A stretch of DNA of 64,000 nucleotides from Gemmatimonas sp. (GTDB lineage Bacteria; Gemmatimonadota; Gemmatimonadetes; Gemmatimonadales; Gemmatimonadaceae): contig NZ_JAJTHI010000022.1 in NCBI RefSeq assembly GCF_021298855.1, positions 62,001 to 126,000 on the forward strand, given 5' to 3'. The notes under the pieces were generated by a model. It saw nothing but the letters and a program-made list of their open reading frames with translations, was not told the origin of the DNA and did not search any database. Numbering within the stretch: the first letter of the stretch is position 1; each line of letters starts with the position of its first letter. The translations under genes and the position numbers were made by a program. Shown here piece after piece: positions 8,561 to 46,669 of the stretch.

Positions 8561-9171
8561 CCAGCGGTCGGGGGTGGTCGTGGTCGGGGTACAGCCACCG
8601 CGGTCGGGGTACGGCCACGGCAGTCGGGGCCCTGCCACCGCGGTCGGGGCCTTACGAGCGGTCGGGGTCGTGGCCGGGCCCGGGGTGGGTCGGCGTTAGC
8701 GGGTCTCGGTCGGGGCGCAGCGGTATGGCAGCGCGGGGTGGGGTCGGGGTCTGGGGGCGCGCGGCGCTGCGCTGGCGCTGGGTCGGGGTCGACGGCGATA
8801 CGGCGGTCGTGGCTCCGGCCGCGGTCGGGGGGCGCGACGCTGCGCTGGCTTCGTCGGGGTTGGGGCCCCGACCCCGACCCGCGCGCAAAGCGCCGCGCCT
8901 CCAACCAGGACCCCGACTGCTTCACCGCAGTCGACCCCGACCAGCGCCAGCGCAGCGTCGCGCACCCCCGGACCCCAACCCCACCCCGCGCCGCCGTGCT
9001 GCTGCGCCCCGACCTCGACGCTGGCCCAGACCCACCCCGGGCCCGGCCGCGACCCCGACTGCTCGTAGGACCCCGACCGCAGTGGCAGGGCCCCGACTGC
9101 CGTGGCAGTACCCCGACCGCGGTGGCTGTACCCCGACCCCGACCACCCAAGACCGCAGGTCAGGCGTCGGT
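8553..9171. repeat. About 620-bp imperfect palindrome rich in GTCGGGG
   Basis: The two halves are reverse complements with scattered mismatches and small gaps, folding about GGGGCCCC at 8862-8869. Matching outer segments include ACGCCTGACC (8552 and, inverted, about 9162-9171) and GGTCGGGGTACAGCCACCGC (8582-8601 and, inverted, about 9117-9136). Inner arms match too, for example GGCCGGGCCCGGGGTGGGTC. The motif GTCGGGG or its complement occurs tens of times. The element lies exactly between two convergent genes. No gene is supported in it: open frames exist in many phases but only reflect base composition. See findings. Confidence 0.9.
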
Positions 9172-18360: not shown

Positions 18361-18437
18361 GTTACTCGCCACCCGAAACCCGAAACTCCTCGTGGTCTGC
18401 GGGAGTTTCGGGTTCCGAGTCGCCGGTGGTGGGTCGA
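18361..18437. repeat. REP-like hairpin (GAGTTTCGGGTTTCG family), copy 1
   Basis: Inverted repeats ACCCGAAACTCC and GGAGTTTCGGGT (with spacer CGTGGTCTGC-type loop) fill the gap between sufD and sufU. Its minus strand shares GAGGAGTTTCGGGTTTCGGG and eight further bases with copy 2 at 20533. Confidence 0.85.
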
Positions 18438-20532: not shown

Positions 20533-20622
20533 GAGGAGTTTCGGGTTTCGGGTGGCGAGTGGCGGGTCGATCAGGAGCGGGGTACCCGCAACCGGATACC
20601 CGAAACTCCCCGACGCCCACGT
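20533..20622. repeat. REP-like hairpin (GAGTTTCGGGTTTCG family), copy 2
   Basis: GGAGTTTCGGGT near 20534 and ATACCCGAAACTCC near 20597 form arms about 50 bp apart, with GGGTACCCGC inside. It lies between sufB and sufC, so it would be in the operon transcript. Confidence 0.85.
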
Positions 20623-24813: not shown

Positions 24814-24921
24814 ATCCTGCTGCCTGCGTCCTGCTGCCTGCGTCCTGCTCCCTCCTGGAGCCGCGAAAAGGACGCAGGGGGCAGGACGCAGGGAGCAGGG
24901 AGCAGGGAGCAGGAAGGAGGC
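24814..24921. repeat. Inverted repeat of CCTGCGTCCTGCT / AGCAGGACGCAGG units
   Basis: The left part repeats GCCTGCGTCCTGCT-like units and the right part their complements (GGACGCAGGG, then GGGAGCAGGGAGCAGG), folding about GAGCCGCGAAAAGG. It lies between convergent ferredoxin and methyltransferase genes. Related G/A-rich units occur near 29711 and 31990. Confidence 0.85.
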
Positions 24922-24926
24922 AACGG

Positions 24927-34902: not shown

Positions 34903-35126
34903 CGGTCGGGGTCTACTGCAGACGGGAGACGGCAGGAACCACAGTGGGCAGACGGCAGGGATGCGGAAGAACAACACGGCGGCGTGCGCTGCGCGCCGCC
35001 GCCGATGTCCCAACCGCAAAGGAAATCGGGCGCCCTGCGAAGCAGTGGCGCCCGTTTTGTTCGACCACATCCCTGCGGCCTGCACACTGTGGTTCCTGCC
35101 GTCTCCCGTCTGCGGTCGACCCCGAC
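34903..35126. repeat. Convergent-gap repeat element, copy A
   Basis: Outer arms of about 45 bp are inverted repeats (GACGGGAGACGGCAGGAACC near 34922 and its complement near 35091). Inside are a GC hairpin GGCGGCGTGCGC...GCGCCGCCGCC, the linker ACCGCAAAGGAAATC, and a second hairpin GGGCGCC...GGCGCCC. The same order is found, inverted, at 46451-46648. Located between the convergent PDZ and matrixin genes. No protein-coding signal. Confidence 0.9.
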
Positions 35127-40767: not shown

Positions 40768-41829
40768 CTACCACGGTTGCACGTGGTCGGCGAGACGCCC
40801 GGTTTCGATCATCTCGTGCAGCGCCTCGCCGAGCGCGCTGCTCATCGCGTTCACGCGTTCCCAGCGGGCGAACCGCTCGGCGTCGGGGAGCGTGTAGAAA
40901 TCGCGGCGATCGGGGATCTTGCCGCCCGGGAGCGCGGCCACGAAGGCGGCACTGGGCGCGATGAGCAGGGTGCGCGCGAAGTTGCGCGCCCCGGCGCGGC
41001 GCCAGGGCAGGGACTTGTCGAACCAGCCAGGGATGACCCGATCCACGAAGTGCGGAAAGAGCACGAGCCCCTCGCCGTTGCCGTAATCGAGATCGAGGTG
41101 GTAATCGGTCACGCCGCCATCCCAATGCACGCCGGGTGTGTCGGGGATGCGTACGCCGTCGAGCAGCAGGGGAATGGAGCCGCTGGCCAGCAGCGCCGCC
41201 CGCACGTTGTCGGCCGTGAGGGGGCGGTGCACCGTAGGCAGGTCGCGCAAGTGGCAAAAGGGGGACGCGCGGCCGCAGGCATGGAAGATCGTGCGTCGCA
41301 GCTGCAGCGCGAGCGAGCGTCGTGAGACGAGGTTGGCCACCGCGGCAAACGCCATGGCGGTGGCCAGCACCAGGCGCGTCTCGCTTGCCGCCGGGCCACG
41401 CGCTTCGGCGGTAATGATGTGCACGCGCACCGTGGGGTGGCGCACGATCTCCTGCGCGCCGTGGGGGCCCAACAGATGGTCGAGGCAGCGGGTCAGCACC
41501 TCGGTCACCTGACGCGGCGTCGGATTCGCGGGATACACCTGATGGCGCGTATACGCGTCGTGTCCCCGCTCGAGGGCGGCCAGCGGGTCCTGCTGTGCCA
41601 GACAGGCCATGCGCCAGCTGCCAATGGAGCTGCCAATGGCGTGCAGCGGCCGCGATCGTGGCGCCTGAAGGAAGGTGCCGAACAGATAGCGGTCGAGTCC
41701 CGCCAGGGCGAGCCACTTGGCCCCCCCGGAGGCGCCGGGAAGAATGTCCACGTCCTCGGCGCGCAGCCCTCGTTCACGGAGCAGAGCGAGCGCATGCGGA
41801 CCGGCGCGGAGAGTCAGGAGGCGCGACAT
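40768..41829 (-). CDS. Patatin-like phospholipase
   Basis: The 353-residue protein has an oxyanion loop GASGGAKW near residue 32, the nucleophile motif GSSIGSW near residue 66 and the catalytic DGGVTDY near residue 240. The arrangement is that of patatin-type lipid acyl hydrolases, which use a Ser-Asp dyad. The substrate may be membrane phospholipid. The 199-bp gap down to the glutamate dehydrogenase gene contains no gene. It is divergent from the PepSY gene across a repeat-rich spacer. Confidence 0.9.
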   Translation of the reverse strand: MSRLLTLRAGPHALALLRERGLRAEDVDILPGASGGAKWLALAGLDRYLFGTFLQAPRSRPLHAIGSSIGSWRMACLAQQDPLAALERGHDAYTRHQVYPANPTPRQVTEVLTRCLDHLLGPHGAQEIVRHPTVRVHIITAEARGPAASETRLVLATAMAFAAVANLVSRRSLALQLRRTIFHACGRASPFCHLRDLPTVHRPLTADNVRAALLASGSIPLLLDGVRIPDTPGVHWDGGVTDYHLDLDYGNGEGLVLFPHFVDRVIPGWFDKSLPWRRAGARNFARTLLIAPSAAFVAALPGGKIPDRRDFYTLPDAERFARWERVNAMSSALGEALHEMIETGRLADHVQPW

Positions 41830-41894
41830 GAGCCAAGGAAACTACGCGGGGGACCACGCGCGATCGACGACGCATTGGCGACCACGCGCTGGCG

Positions 41895-42217
41895 GAAACG
41901 CGTTGGCGGGGACGCGTTGGCACCAACGCGGAACAGCGTGGGCGCCAACGTGACACACGGACGTCCGGCAACTACGCGGGTCGGGGTCGGGGTCGGGGTC
42001 GGGGGGCGGCTGCGCCGGCGTCGTTGCCGGCGTCGGTGCCGGCGTCGGTGTCCGCGTCGGTGTCCGCGTCGGTGCCGGCGTCGGTGCCGGCGTCGGTGTC
42101 CGCGTCGGTGCCAACGCGTCGGTGCCAACGCGTCCCCGCCAACGCGTCCCCGCCAACGCGTCCCCGATCGCGCGTTCCTCCGCGCGTTCCTCCGCGCGTT
42201 CCTCCGCGCGTTCCTCC
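41895..42217. repeat. Tandem and inverted repeats in the patatin/PepSY spacer
   Basis: Within the 501-bp spacer: TCGGGG four times from about 41980; eight 12-bp units of GCCGGCGTCGGT or GTCCGCGTCGGT (42014-42109); four 14-bp units based on GCCAACGCGTCCCC (42110-42165); and four 12-bp units of GCGTTCCTCCGC (42170-42217). An inverted copy of the 14-bp unit lies at 41899-41923, so the stretch can fold. No gene is supported here. The unit AACGCGTCC also recurs inside the PepSY gene. Confidence 0.9.
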
Positions 42218-42263
42218 GCGCATCGTCCCCTCGTCGCCCCTGCGTCTCCCCGTCCAATCCCGA

Positions 42264-42321
42264 TTGACGCGGTCGGCAATTCCCCTTATCCTCCGGTATA
42301 CGTTTCTGAGAACCATTCTCA
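42264..42321 (+). promoter_or_regulatory. Promoter and Fur-box-like site of the PepSY gene
   Basis: TTGACG (42264-42269), a 17-nt spacer and TATCCT (42287-42292) form the promoter. Downstream, TGAGAACCATTCTCA (42307-42321) is a palindrome (TGAGAA-N3-TTCTCA) much like Fur binding sites, placed 10 bp before the ATG. Repression by iron-loaded Fur is the likely control. Confidence 0.75.
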
Positions 42322-42330
42322 TCTAGGGTC

Positions 42331-43542
42331 ATGCGCGCGCTCCGCCCAATCCTCTTCTGGACTCACCTCGTGTCCGGTGTCGTCGCCGGGGCGGTCGTGC
42401 TCATCATGTCGGTGACCGGGGTGTTGCTGACGTACCAGAAGCAGATGACGCTCTGGGCGGACCTGCGCGGGGTCGAGGCCGGGCCTCCCACACCGGGGGC
42501 GGTGCGCCTCGCGCCCGACTCACTCCTGGCGATCGTCACGGCGCGCGGCGGCACGGCGCCCACCACCGTCGTCTGGCGCAATGGCGCCCAGATGCCCGTC
42601 GAGGTGCAATTCGGCCGGGAAGGGCGGCAGTACCTGAGCGCCTATACCGGCGAGGTCCTGGGCACCGGCAGCGTGACCATGCGCAAGGTCTTCAGCGTGG
42701 CAACCGAGTGGCATCGGTACCTGGCCATGACGAATGCGCAGCGTCCCACGGGCAAGGCCATCACGGGGTGGTCCAACATGGCGTTCCTCGTGCTCGTGCT
42801 CACCGGCATGGTCCTCTGGTGGCCGCGCAACCTCACCTGGGGTGCCGTGCGCAACGTACTGCTCTTCCGTCGCGGCCTCTCGGGCAAGGCGCGCGACTTC
42901 AACTGGCACAACGTCATCGGCATCTGGAGCGCCATTCCGCTGGCGCTGGTGGTGGCCAGCGCCACGGTGATCTCCTTCCCGTGGGCCAGCGATCTGGTCT
43001 ACAAGGCCGTGGGTGAGGCGCCGCCGTCGCGTGCCCCCGAGGGGAACGCCGCCCGGGGCGCGACCATCGGCGCGTCTGGCAACGCGTCCGGCAACGCGTC
43101 CGGCAACGCGTCCGGTGGCGGGCAGCCCGCTCCCGTCGCCACGCCACGACTGGGCGATGTATACGCCGTGGCCGCCGAACGCATGCCCGACTGGCGCGCC
43201 CTCTCGCTCGCGTGGCCCAAGACCGCCGACGCACCGCTCGTGTACACCGTTGATCGCGGCATGGGTGGCGAACCCACCAAGCGGGCCACCCTCACCGTGT
43301 CGCGGAACGGGGAACCCACCTCGTGGCAGCCGTTCGATTCCCTCACCACGGGCCGTCAGGTACGCACCATCATGCGCTTCACGCACACGGGTGAGGTCCT
43401 CGGGTTCTGGGGGCAGACGCTCGCCGGTCTCGTGTCGCTTGGCGCCTCGGTGCTGGTGGTCACCGGCCTCCTGCTCTCGCTGCGACGGCTGCTGGCGTGG
43501 CGGCGACGCGGGGCGCGTGTGGACGTGCCGCTCACAGCGTAG
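42331..43542 (+). CDS. PepSY-associated membrane protein (iron-uptake related)
   Basis: The 403-residue protein has the PepSY-TM layout: an N-terminal helix starting ALRPILFWTHLVSGVVAG, a periplasmic PepSY region, the motif LVLTGMVLWWPR, RDFNWHNVIGIWS, a further loop and a C-terminal helix. Histidines in WTHLV, EWHRY, WHNV and FTHTGEVLG could bind heme. Related proteins reduce ferric siderophores or accompany TonB receptors. The loop near residue 252 holds a GNAS repeat (ASGNASGNASGNAS). A Fur-like site in the promoter supports an iron role. Confidence 0.88.
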   Translation: MRALRPILFWTHLVSGVVAGAVVLIMSVTGVLLTYQKQMTLWADLRGVEAGPPTPGAVRLAPDSLLAIVTARGGTAPTTVVWRNGAQMPVEVQFGREGRQYLSAYTGEVLGTGSVTMRKVFSVATEWHRYLAMTNAQRPTGKAITGWSNMAFLVLVLTGMVLWWPRNLTWGAVRNVLLFRRGLSGKARDFNWHNVIGIWSAIPLALVVASATVISFPWASDLVYKAVGEAPPSRAPEGNAARGATIGASGNASGNASGNASGGGQPAPVATPRLGDVYAVAAERMPDWRALSLAWPKTADAPLVYTVDRGMGGEPTKRATLTVSRNGEPTSWQPFDSLTTGRQVRTIMRFTHTGEVLGFWGQTLAGLVSLGASVLVVTGLLLSLRRLLAWRRRGARVDVPLTA

Positions 43543-43662: not shown

Positions 43663-44172
43663 GTGGCATCCGACTGCGGGCATGACACGTGGGCGGTCAC
43701 CATCCCCATGACGTCGCGTGACGACCACGGCATCCATGGGGAGTTCCGCGCTCCGGTCTGTGGCCAATACCTCGGCAATCCCACGCGCATCACCGGGCGA
43801 CATCGGGGCACGGTGGCACGCGCCATCGCCGCCGACGTCGAACTCGCGCTCGATGCCGCCCATCGCGTCGCGCCGACCAGGGGTCGTACACCGTCAACAG
43901 GCCGGGCCATCACCCTCAACACGATCGCCGATCGCCTCGAGGAGAATCGCGAAGCGCTGGCCATGATCGAGACCATCCACCGCTGCCTCTCCGTCGCTGG
44001 TGTGCTGCGGGCGCGGCCGAGCACCCGCTGCCTGTACCCGGCGCACGCCGCCTTCGGCGGCGACAAGCAGCGCGGCATACGGCGGAAGAACCGCAAGATC
44101 ATGCGCAGCCACTCCCGGCAGACCACGAACCTGCTGGTGCGCTACAGCCCCCACGCGCTGTGCGTCTTCTGA
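43663..44172 (+). pseudogene. Aldehyde dehydrogenase remnant with large internal deletion
   Basis: The 169-residue frame joins the two ends of an NAD-aldehyde dehydrogenase (ExaC/AcoD-type). Its N-terminal part (GEFRAPVCGQYL, DVELALDAAH, IADRLEENREALAMIETI) corresponds to residues about 20-100 of the family. Its C-terminal part (YPAHAAFGGDKQRGI, QTTNLLVRYSP) corresponds to the last 45 residues. Roughly 380 residues with the catalytic Cys and Glu are missing, at about 43975-44020. Conserved positions have decayed (FGGYK to FGGDK). The frame has stayed open, so translation is possible, but it cannot be an aldehyde dehydrogenase. Confidence 0.85.
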
Positions 44173-44283
44173 GCATCGGCGTGGTGCCGGCGCCTGCTCT
44201 GCGGCCACGCCCAGTCGGGGCGCTGACGCGTGAGAGGGAGCCGGGGCGGGGGACGCAGGGATAGGCTCACCGTTCCCCTCCAC

Positions 44284-44350
44284 TCGAAACGCGAAACCCG
44301 AAACTCCCCGTGATCCGCCGGGAGTTTCGGGTTTCGTGTCGCGGGTAGCC
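44284..44350. repeat. REP-like hairpin (GAGTTTCGGGTTTCG family), copy 3
   Basis: CGAAACCCGAAACTCC near 44292 and GGGAGTTTCGGGTTTCG near 44320 form a strong stem, located between the aldehyde dehydrogenase remnant and LPOR. Same unit as at 18361 and 20533. Confidence 0.88.
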
Positions 44351-46414: not shown

Positions 46415-46450
46415 GGGGAGTGTGGCGAGGGCCGTGCGTGCGACACACAG

Positions 46451-46648
46451 CAGACGGCAGACGGCAGGAACTACAGCACGCAGTACGGCAGGCATGTGGT
46501 ACAACACAACGGGCGCCACCGCTTCGCGGGGCGCCCGATTTCCTTTGCGGTAGGGATATCGGCGGCAGCGCGTGGCGCACGCCGCCGTGTTGTTCTTCCG
46601 AATCCCTGCCCAACTGCGTGCTGTAGTTCCTGCCGTCTGCCGTCTGCG
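46451..46648. repeat. Convergent-gap repeat element, copy B (inverted to copy A)
   Basis: Read on the minus strand this matches copy A (34903-35126) in the same order: arm, GCGGAAGAACAACACGGCGG hairpin, ACCGCAAAGGAAATC linker, GGGCGCC hairpin, arm. The central 115 bases look close to 90% identical by eye. It is between the convergent PP2C and phosphoglucomutase genes. Confidence 0.9.
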
Positions 46649-46669
46649 TGTGGTCGCCCACACCACCTG

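Follow-up and report, generated by a model that had tools for sequence, protein, structure and literature searches.

The window, a stretch of 64,000 nucleotides of Gemmatimonas sp. (NCBI RefSeq assembly GCF_021298855.1, contig NZ_JAJTHI010000022.1, positions 62,001 to 126,000 of the forward strand), contains a repeat-rich spacer between two divergent genes. On its left lies a gene for a patatin-like (PNPLA) protein (40768–41829, minus strand; Pfam Patatin, E = 1.4e-05, under the curated cut-off), whose start codon is about 13 bp away from the repeats, and on its right a PepSY_TM gene (42331–43542, plus strand; E = 1.1e-44). Further on, ORF 43663–44172 looks like a gene remnant, being an aldehyde dehydrogenase fragment (Pfam Aldedh, 1.5e-06) that matches over residues 43–106 only. 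The repeats form a single element at 41842–42221, its edges drawn by eye to within about 15 bp. TRF and direct reading recovered the arrays where the sequence-only reading had placed them: four 14-bp units (42110–42166, plus strand; 4.1 copies, 93% match), of which three are exact GCCAACGCGTCCCC and one is the variant GCCAACGCGTCGGT; a 12-bp array of GCCGGCGTCGGT (42014–42126, 9.2 copies); and a coding array within the PepSY gene. Overlooked at that stage were an outer 12-bp array of CGCGCGTTCCTC (42169–42221, 4.4 copies), a 6-bp GGGTCG array (41978–42004) near what proves to be the tip of a palindrome, and a left arm (41865–41921, minus strand), in which TRF and unit search find the 14-bp unit of the right arm inverted (GCCAACGCGTNNNN on the minus strand).

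The two ends bear ACGCGCGATCG/CGATCGCGCGT and have CGATCGCGCG in common, within end modules that each depart from the family pattern by one mismatch (left, ACGCGCGATCGACGACGCATTGGC, 41856–41879, plus strand, by a 41-arm alignment; right, ACGCGCGATCGGGGACGCGTTGGC, 42152–42175, minus strand). Because the unit is inverted in the left arm and the ends are shared, 41842–42221 is one long imperfect palindrome. Its predicted RNA fold has an energy of -262.9 kcal/mol (z -6.86), and none of 100 shuffles folds as well. The 14-bp units of the arms are a multiple of 7 bp; the inner and outer arrays have 12-bp units. The suggestion that the spacer grew by tandem expansion, with variable repeat number, is borne out between species: the element measures 379 bp here and 471 bp in the sister species. 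In what follows, G000 denotes the genome of the window itself, G015 the sister species and G003 a third species that carries the element.

Upstream of the PepSY gene lies TGAGAACCATTCTCA (42307–42321), a putative site that we take to be Fur-box-like from its sequence. Together with a CCCGATTGAC...TCGG stretch it occupies 42260–42321, and both resemble the PepSY upstream regions of congeners that are without the element. Within the gene, and outside the element, three tandem GGCAACGCGTCC units (43078–43113, plus strand; 43071–43115 and 3.8 copies by TRF) encode GNASGNASGNAS (GNAS) in a hypervariable loop, a placement based on sequence, alignment and profile. The word AACGCGTCC is common to spacer and gene: it occurs seven times in the window against 1.09 expected (100 shuffles, largest 5), and all seven copies fall either in the spacer array or in the PepSY repeat. 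From this the sequence-only reading had proposed that a local unit, having expanded in the spacer, went on to enter the PepSY gene, where it lengthened a loop. The loop is a length-variable linker: across 12 aligned PepSY proteins, the window's included, the segment after an AVGEAPP-like motif is a differing low-complexity stretch in most species. The spread of the spacer unit into the gene does not survive the comparison. The loop sequences differ in all 11 orthologues and AACGCGTCC is found in none of them; the nearest orthologue, that of G015, has GGAACCGCCACC repeats (GTAT), though the spacer element is present in that species. The codons of the loop in homologues are unrelated, the outcome that the proposal had itself named as speaking against it, and none of the 55 matches of the element profile to the own genome lies on the PepSY repeat. 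The GNAS codons are usable (GGC 0.58, AAC 0.79, GCG 0.41, TCC 0.16) and the coding word represents about 3% of all GNAS spellings, both figures resting on codon use in seven ORFs. Since the loop differs among species and carries GGAACCGCCACC in G015, the shared word is, judged by these alignments, most likely a coincidence of two GC-rich tandem expansions, and its spread from spacer to gene is scarcely credible.

The spacer element belongs to a dispersed family. Exact GCCAACGCGTCC occurs in 32 copies in the own genome and in none in a reversed control, mostly as pairs of a left arm (minus strand) and a right arm (plus strand) with a few hundred bases between them. A search of 100 genomes for two spaced units, GCCAACGCGTNNNNGCCAACGCGT, gives 60 matches in G000 and 32 in G015; the remaining 98 genomes, among them 28 congeners, have none. 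A 59-column profile built from 41 arms, run against 30 genomes of the genus, yields 55 matches in G000, 50 in G015 and 13 in G003. Each of five further genomes (G006, G021, G025, G002 and G009) has one or two weak matches, together six of 124, and these were dropped for want of paired arms with an end module. Among other named genomes the pattern matched seven stretches (four in Verrucomicrobia-type MAGs, two in Planctomycetes-type MAGs and one in a Streptomyces), each with only two or so units and without the end module of this family, and these were likewise rejected as family members. Four Verrucomicrobia-type MAG loci (L020, L021, L023 and L025) have in common a short word like GGAACGCGTTGGCCCCAACGCGTT, in a layout unlike that of the window family. 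In form the window element resembles a MITE, being short, gene-less, bounded by terminal inverted repeats and dispersed. Six draft contigs of G000 (C8, C55, C66, C68, C72 and C76) end within such elements, so the palindromes seem to break assembly.

The family occupies 13 loci in G000, 14 in G015 and seven in G003. Although two of the G000 loci are split over contig ends and others are cut by them, all 13 match G015 loci by their flanks, some on one side only where a contig ends; 13 of 14 positions are thus common to the two species, which implies little recent movement. Three of the seven G003 loci can be matched by flanks to G000 or G015. Most G003 copies spell the unit CCCAACGCGT and the end CCACCGCGCG, and those of G000 and G015 spell GCCAACGCGT and CGATCGCGCG; this species-specific spelling indicates that copies within one species change together. 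Presence and absence differ between species at particular sites. The start-to-start distance between the PNPLA and PepSY neighbours is 501 bp in G000 and 558 bp in G015, against 114–206 bp in the eight congeners that have both genes, where the element is absent (three more congeners have the PepSY gene with no PNPLA match in the locus and stand outside this comparison). The G015 copy at C4:379.6-380.1 kb is absent from G000, where its flanks lie one base apart in the alignment; the site is filled by a different palindrome in G001 and by other sequence in G020 and G028. Of the four G003 loci with no G000 or G015 counterpart, the comparison covered one site (C55). It is occupied in G015 by an S23 element of another family, and apparently also in G000, across two contig ends, and the gap is only about 50 bp in G028 and 40 bp in G020. 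No clear target-site duplication was seen: a 3-bp overlap occurs at one plasmid site only, and the spacers compared elsewhere, as at the C4 site of G015 and G000, are highly diverged.

Of 17 distinct loci, 16 place the element no more than 28 bp from a gene 3′ end, the position shortly behind an upstream gene that is also typical of intergenic heptamer repeats. The neighbouring genes are convergent at six loci, tandem at 10 and divergent at one, as called by a simple codon score with no gene finder and with G003 locus C96 omitted because of its Ns. The divergent locus is that of the window, which as the sole such site breaks the rule of a position behind a stop codon.

One long copy of the same family carries an ORF at the centre of its palindrome (G000:C31:225.8-227.1 kb; G015:C4:394.1-395.1 kb; G003:C161). 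The G015 protein matches TIGR02436, four helix bundle protein (8.2e-23), and PF05635, 23S_rRNA_IVP (9.4e-20), hereafter S23. One flank of the site is common to all three species and the other to G000 and G015 only, and the right array differs between species, with 10 units in one and five in another. The dN/dS ratio of S23 is 0.087, 0.109 and 0.095 for the three species pairs; at about 0.1, it indicates that the protein is kept under purifying selection. S23 is the only gene found in longer family copies, and no known transposase was found with the element. The window copy has the inverted repeat and no ORF, and all nine S23 matches of G000 lie elsewhere. Another S23 protein of G015, used as a phmmer query, matches the solved structures 2gsc (Xanthomonas campestris XCC0516) and 2rld; a solved homologue is quoted as a homopentamer in PMC4990558. 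The elements sit between protein genes and not inside a 23S rRNA gene, and an Rfam scan of 20 S23 loci from G000, G015 and G003 gave no matches.

The pairing of S23 genes with inverted arrays is general and recurs in several phyla. Of the genomes scanned for PF05635, 28 of 30 in the genus and 100 of 121 in the order contain it; none of 14 control genomes does. The left flank of each S23 gene was aligned with the reverse complement of its right flank, mismatched flank pairs serving as the control; the loci analysed cover part of the S23 matches in genus and order, and both here and in the period test they include orthologues, so that not all are independent. Within the genus, 32 of 44 S23 genes score above 16.0, the 95% point of 284 mismatched pairs, and the copies of the window family reach 202.0 (G000), 118.5 (G015) and 58.5 (G003). 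The 99% point for the genus (155.5, exceeded by only two of 44) is raised artificially by homologous elements, which pair among themselves; the 95% point was therefore used, together with a positional control (n = 183) whose 95% point is 14 and whose maximum is 207. Of 28 S23 genes from the order's other genera, 26 exceed the 95% point (15.0; 756 mismatched pairs) and 14 the 99% point (22.7). Short flanks led to the omission of L109 and L104 from the genus and L152 from the other genera. Plasmids carry an S23 relative in 14 records; leaving out H10, the twin of H9, nine of 13 exceed both the 95% (17.6) and the 99% (22.35) points of 156 mismatched pairs. The arm words include TATCAGG, GTGTCGG and GAGAGTT in the order, and TAGGGAG, GGGAACA and GGTGTAG in cyanobacteria. 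By a strict period test, in which S23 positions in order-wide loci were assumed from the locus layout, 29 of 172 S23 flanks are periodic (143 fail) against seven of 497 control segments; the period is 7, 14 or 21 in 16 of the 29 flanks.

S23-less palindromes related to S23 flanks also occur elsewhere in the window. Those at 8564–9156, 34915–35117, 46437–46652 and 44277–44331, and shorter ones, match S23 flanks of G000 or G015. At E 1e-5 the window is matched by flanks of seven of 20 S23 genes, and three of the seven belong to the window family itself. Matches are made by 11 of 39 S23 flank segments against eight of 152 control segments, four of those eight lying on one stretch at 52.8–53.5 kb, three at 32.5 kb and one on window palindromes.

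One of these palindromes, about 600 bp at 8564–9156, is built of GGTCGGGG-type 20-bp repeats; its arms match S23 flanks on G000:C17 and G015:C8, and no S23 family match lies inside it. Those at 34915–35117 and 46437–46652 match the flank of an S23 gene at the end of contig G000:C6. At 44277–44331, 18364–18412, 20535–20612 and 24815–24926, GTTTCGG and TCCTGCTGCCTGCG words form small palindromes or arrays that match flanks of S23 genes on G000:C58 and G015:C16.

In cyanobacterial plasmids, S23 elements appear as clean inserts between genes: at four of the five loci tried, inserts of 477–518 bp face gaps of -3 to 42 bp in relatives. In Nostoc sp. ATCC 53789 pNsp_c, a 503-bp S23 insert with GGGAAAA-type arms lies at the TAATG junction of two genes; pC052_A of Nostoc sp. 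C052, whose flanks are 91–94% identical, has this junction uninterrupted. Calothrix, a genus in which STRR heptamers occur, provides a further case: plasmid1 of Calothrix brevissima has about 518 bp where plasmids of Nostoc carneum, Tolypothrix and Aulosira have 10–11 bp. Nostoc sp. C052 pC052_D has 477–486 bp against 36–42 bp in two C057 plasmids, and at the same site pNsp_c of Nostoc ATCC 53789 keeps array-like arms without the S23 gene (L190). Nostoc edaphicum pNe_5 has 494 bp in place of 13 bp of a Calothrix plasmid. At the fifth locus, 849 bp lie between cas6 and cas4 of Anabaena sp. 90, and Dolichospermum, with flanks 98–99% identical, has 273 unrelated bases there, so this pair is a replacement and not a clean insert. 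Three plasmid S23 genes (L168, L173 and L178) lie within CRISPR gene clusters, in the orders cas6-S23-cas4 and cas10-S23-cmr3. The plasmid inserts, which have other arm words, support the class of elements and not the window family directly.

Taken together, the spacer is best read as a MITE-like member of a dispersed palindrome family, a copy without S23 that derives from an IVS-like selfish element outside rRNA, a reading to which we give a probability of roughly two in three. On this reading a full element is a long inverted repeat with the S23 gene at its tip. Tandem arrays, in many cases with a 7-bp unit or a multiple of it, make up the arms, and such elements fill intergenic gaps, as a rule right behind a stop codon, leaving the genes intact. 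The window copy would have lost its S23 gene or never had one. S23 might recognise or bind the arms and act in trans; hairpin DNA or RNA could be the moving or copied form, new copies arising with host enzymes, and the arrays would then change length by slippage and be homogenised between copies within a species. Several observations tell against this reading: the window locus is the lone divergent site of 17, target-site duplications are not consistent and nearly all positions are common to G000 and G015. Different palindromes at one site in different species could reflect turnover in place rather than insertion; the arm words of the plasmid inserts are unrelated, and we infer the link between S23 and movement. 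Moreover, 12 of 44 S23 genes in the genus are without significant inverted flanks, and just 16 of 29 periodic flanks have a multiple of 7.

The same palindromes could instead be resident 3′-end structures that act as transcription terminators or as stabilisers of mRNA, in the manner of BIME/REP, and are retained for that role; slippage and gene conversion would drive their evolution, and S23 genes would have entered some of them secondarily. The abutment of 16 of 17 loci on a gene 3′ end, six of them convergent, fits such a role, as do the stable fold, positions mostly common to sister species and the species-specific unit spelling, which suggests homogenisation. However, congeners lack the element at the corresponding gaps, the window copy lies between divergent genes with no T-tract after its hairpin, and in cyanobacterial gene clusters the arms arrive with the S23 insert, all of which makes this origin rather unlikely. 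Two further alternatives involve a transposase. The copies have inverted tandem sites at each end, much like multi-site transposon ends, and might be internal-deletion remnants of a vanished conventional insertion sequence with subterminal transposase-binding arrays, no autonomous transposase copy of which is seen in the family's loci. Yet S23, present at a single locus in three species, is the only gene seen inside any copy, and other genera and phyla repeat the layout of S23 plus arms with arm sequences that are unrelated, so we consider such remnants improbable. The dispersed intergenic palindromes, and the single Y1_Tnp gene in each of G000 and G015, would also suit a REPIN/RAYT-like family moved by a Y1 (TnpA_REP) transposase. 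This is very improbable: Y1_Tnp occurs in only eight of 30 genus genomes and not in G003 (59% complete), which has seven elements; the G000 gene sits on contig C30, which has no profile match; and G020 and G028 have S23 genes without Y1_Tnp. No Y1 (RAYT) gene was found linked to the element, and RAYT identity was rejected.

Heptameric intergenic repeats are a close parallel to the arms. PMC4692102 describes tandem arrays of GGGAATC in Xanthomonas and GGGGA(T/C)T in Nostoc, and mentions heptanucleotides in Calothrix. The Xanthomonas repeats form 70 and 75 inverted pairs in two genomes and lie about 28 nt behind the 5′ neighbour gene, with 7–8% between divergent genes; the authors state that the heptamers are generally not found with mobile elements, and in the available text S23 or four helix bundle proteins go unmentioned (PMC4692102). 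The family shares with these repeats its tandem arrays, inverted pairs and spot just behind the upstream gene, and differs in its words. The TAACTGA arrays of Beggiatoaceae are also intergenic heptamers, for which a mobile carrier was considered and, in the available text, S23 is unmentioned; unlike the inverted arrays here, they are mostly direct repeats upstream of start codons (PMC4679880). No report of the repeats of this genus, or of a link between S23 and repeats, was found in the open-licence PMC literature.

We tentatively propose, at somewhat less than even odds for the whole, a class of tiny mobile elements that spans phyla, is defined by S23 genes and has no known transposase. In it S23 would lie between inverted, often heptameric arrays, and insertion would be into the gap that separates a stop codon from the following gene. 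The rRNA IVS would then be a special case, one that landed in rRNA, the heptamer repeats of cyanobacteria, Xanthomonas and others would be arms and gene-less derivatives, and the S23 ring would read the arrays and move or maintain them. S23 is a widespread protein of obscure role, best known for its place in rRNA insertions, and intergenic heptamer repeats are a recurrent finding that has been left unexplained; pairing the two makes both testable, with S23 as the protein partner of the repeats. The proposal offers a simple account of the long palindromes in many Gemmatimonadales intergenic gaps, and of gene clusters that gain inserts without gene loss.

MITEs and REPIN/RAYT elements are short, gene-less, palindromic and dispersed. 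The window copy resembles them in these respects and differs in having no Y1 link, a partner gene in S23 and long arms of variable arrays. A close likeness for the full element is the 23S rRNA IVS. In Coxiella burnetii, according to PMC4990558, the IVS is an S23-bearing stem-loop in 23S rRNA, called selfish, in which GACAGAT tandem heptamers precede an S23 ORF reported to be decaying and probably not expressed. Like that IVS (PMC4990558), the full element carries an S23 gene in the loop of an inverted-repeat stem; unlike it, the family described here lies outside rRNA in intergenic positions, has many S23-less copies and keeps an S23 gene with a dN/dS of about 0.1.
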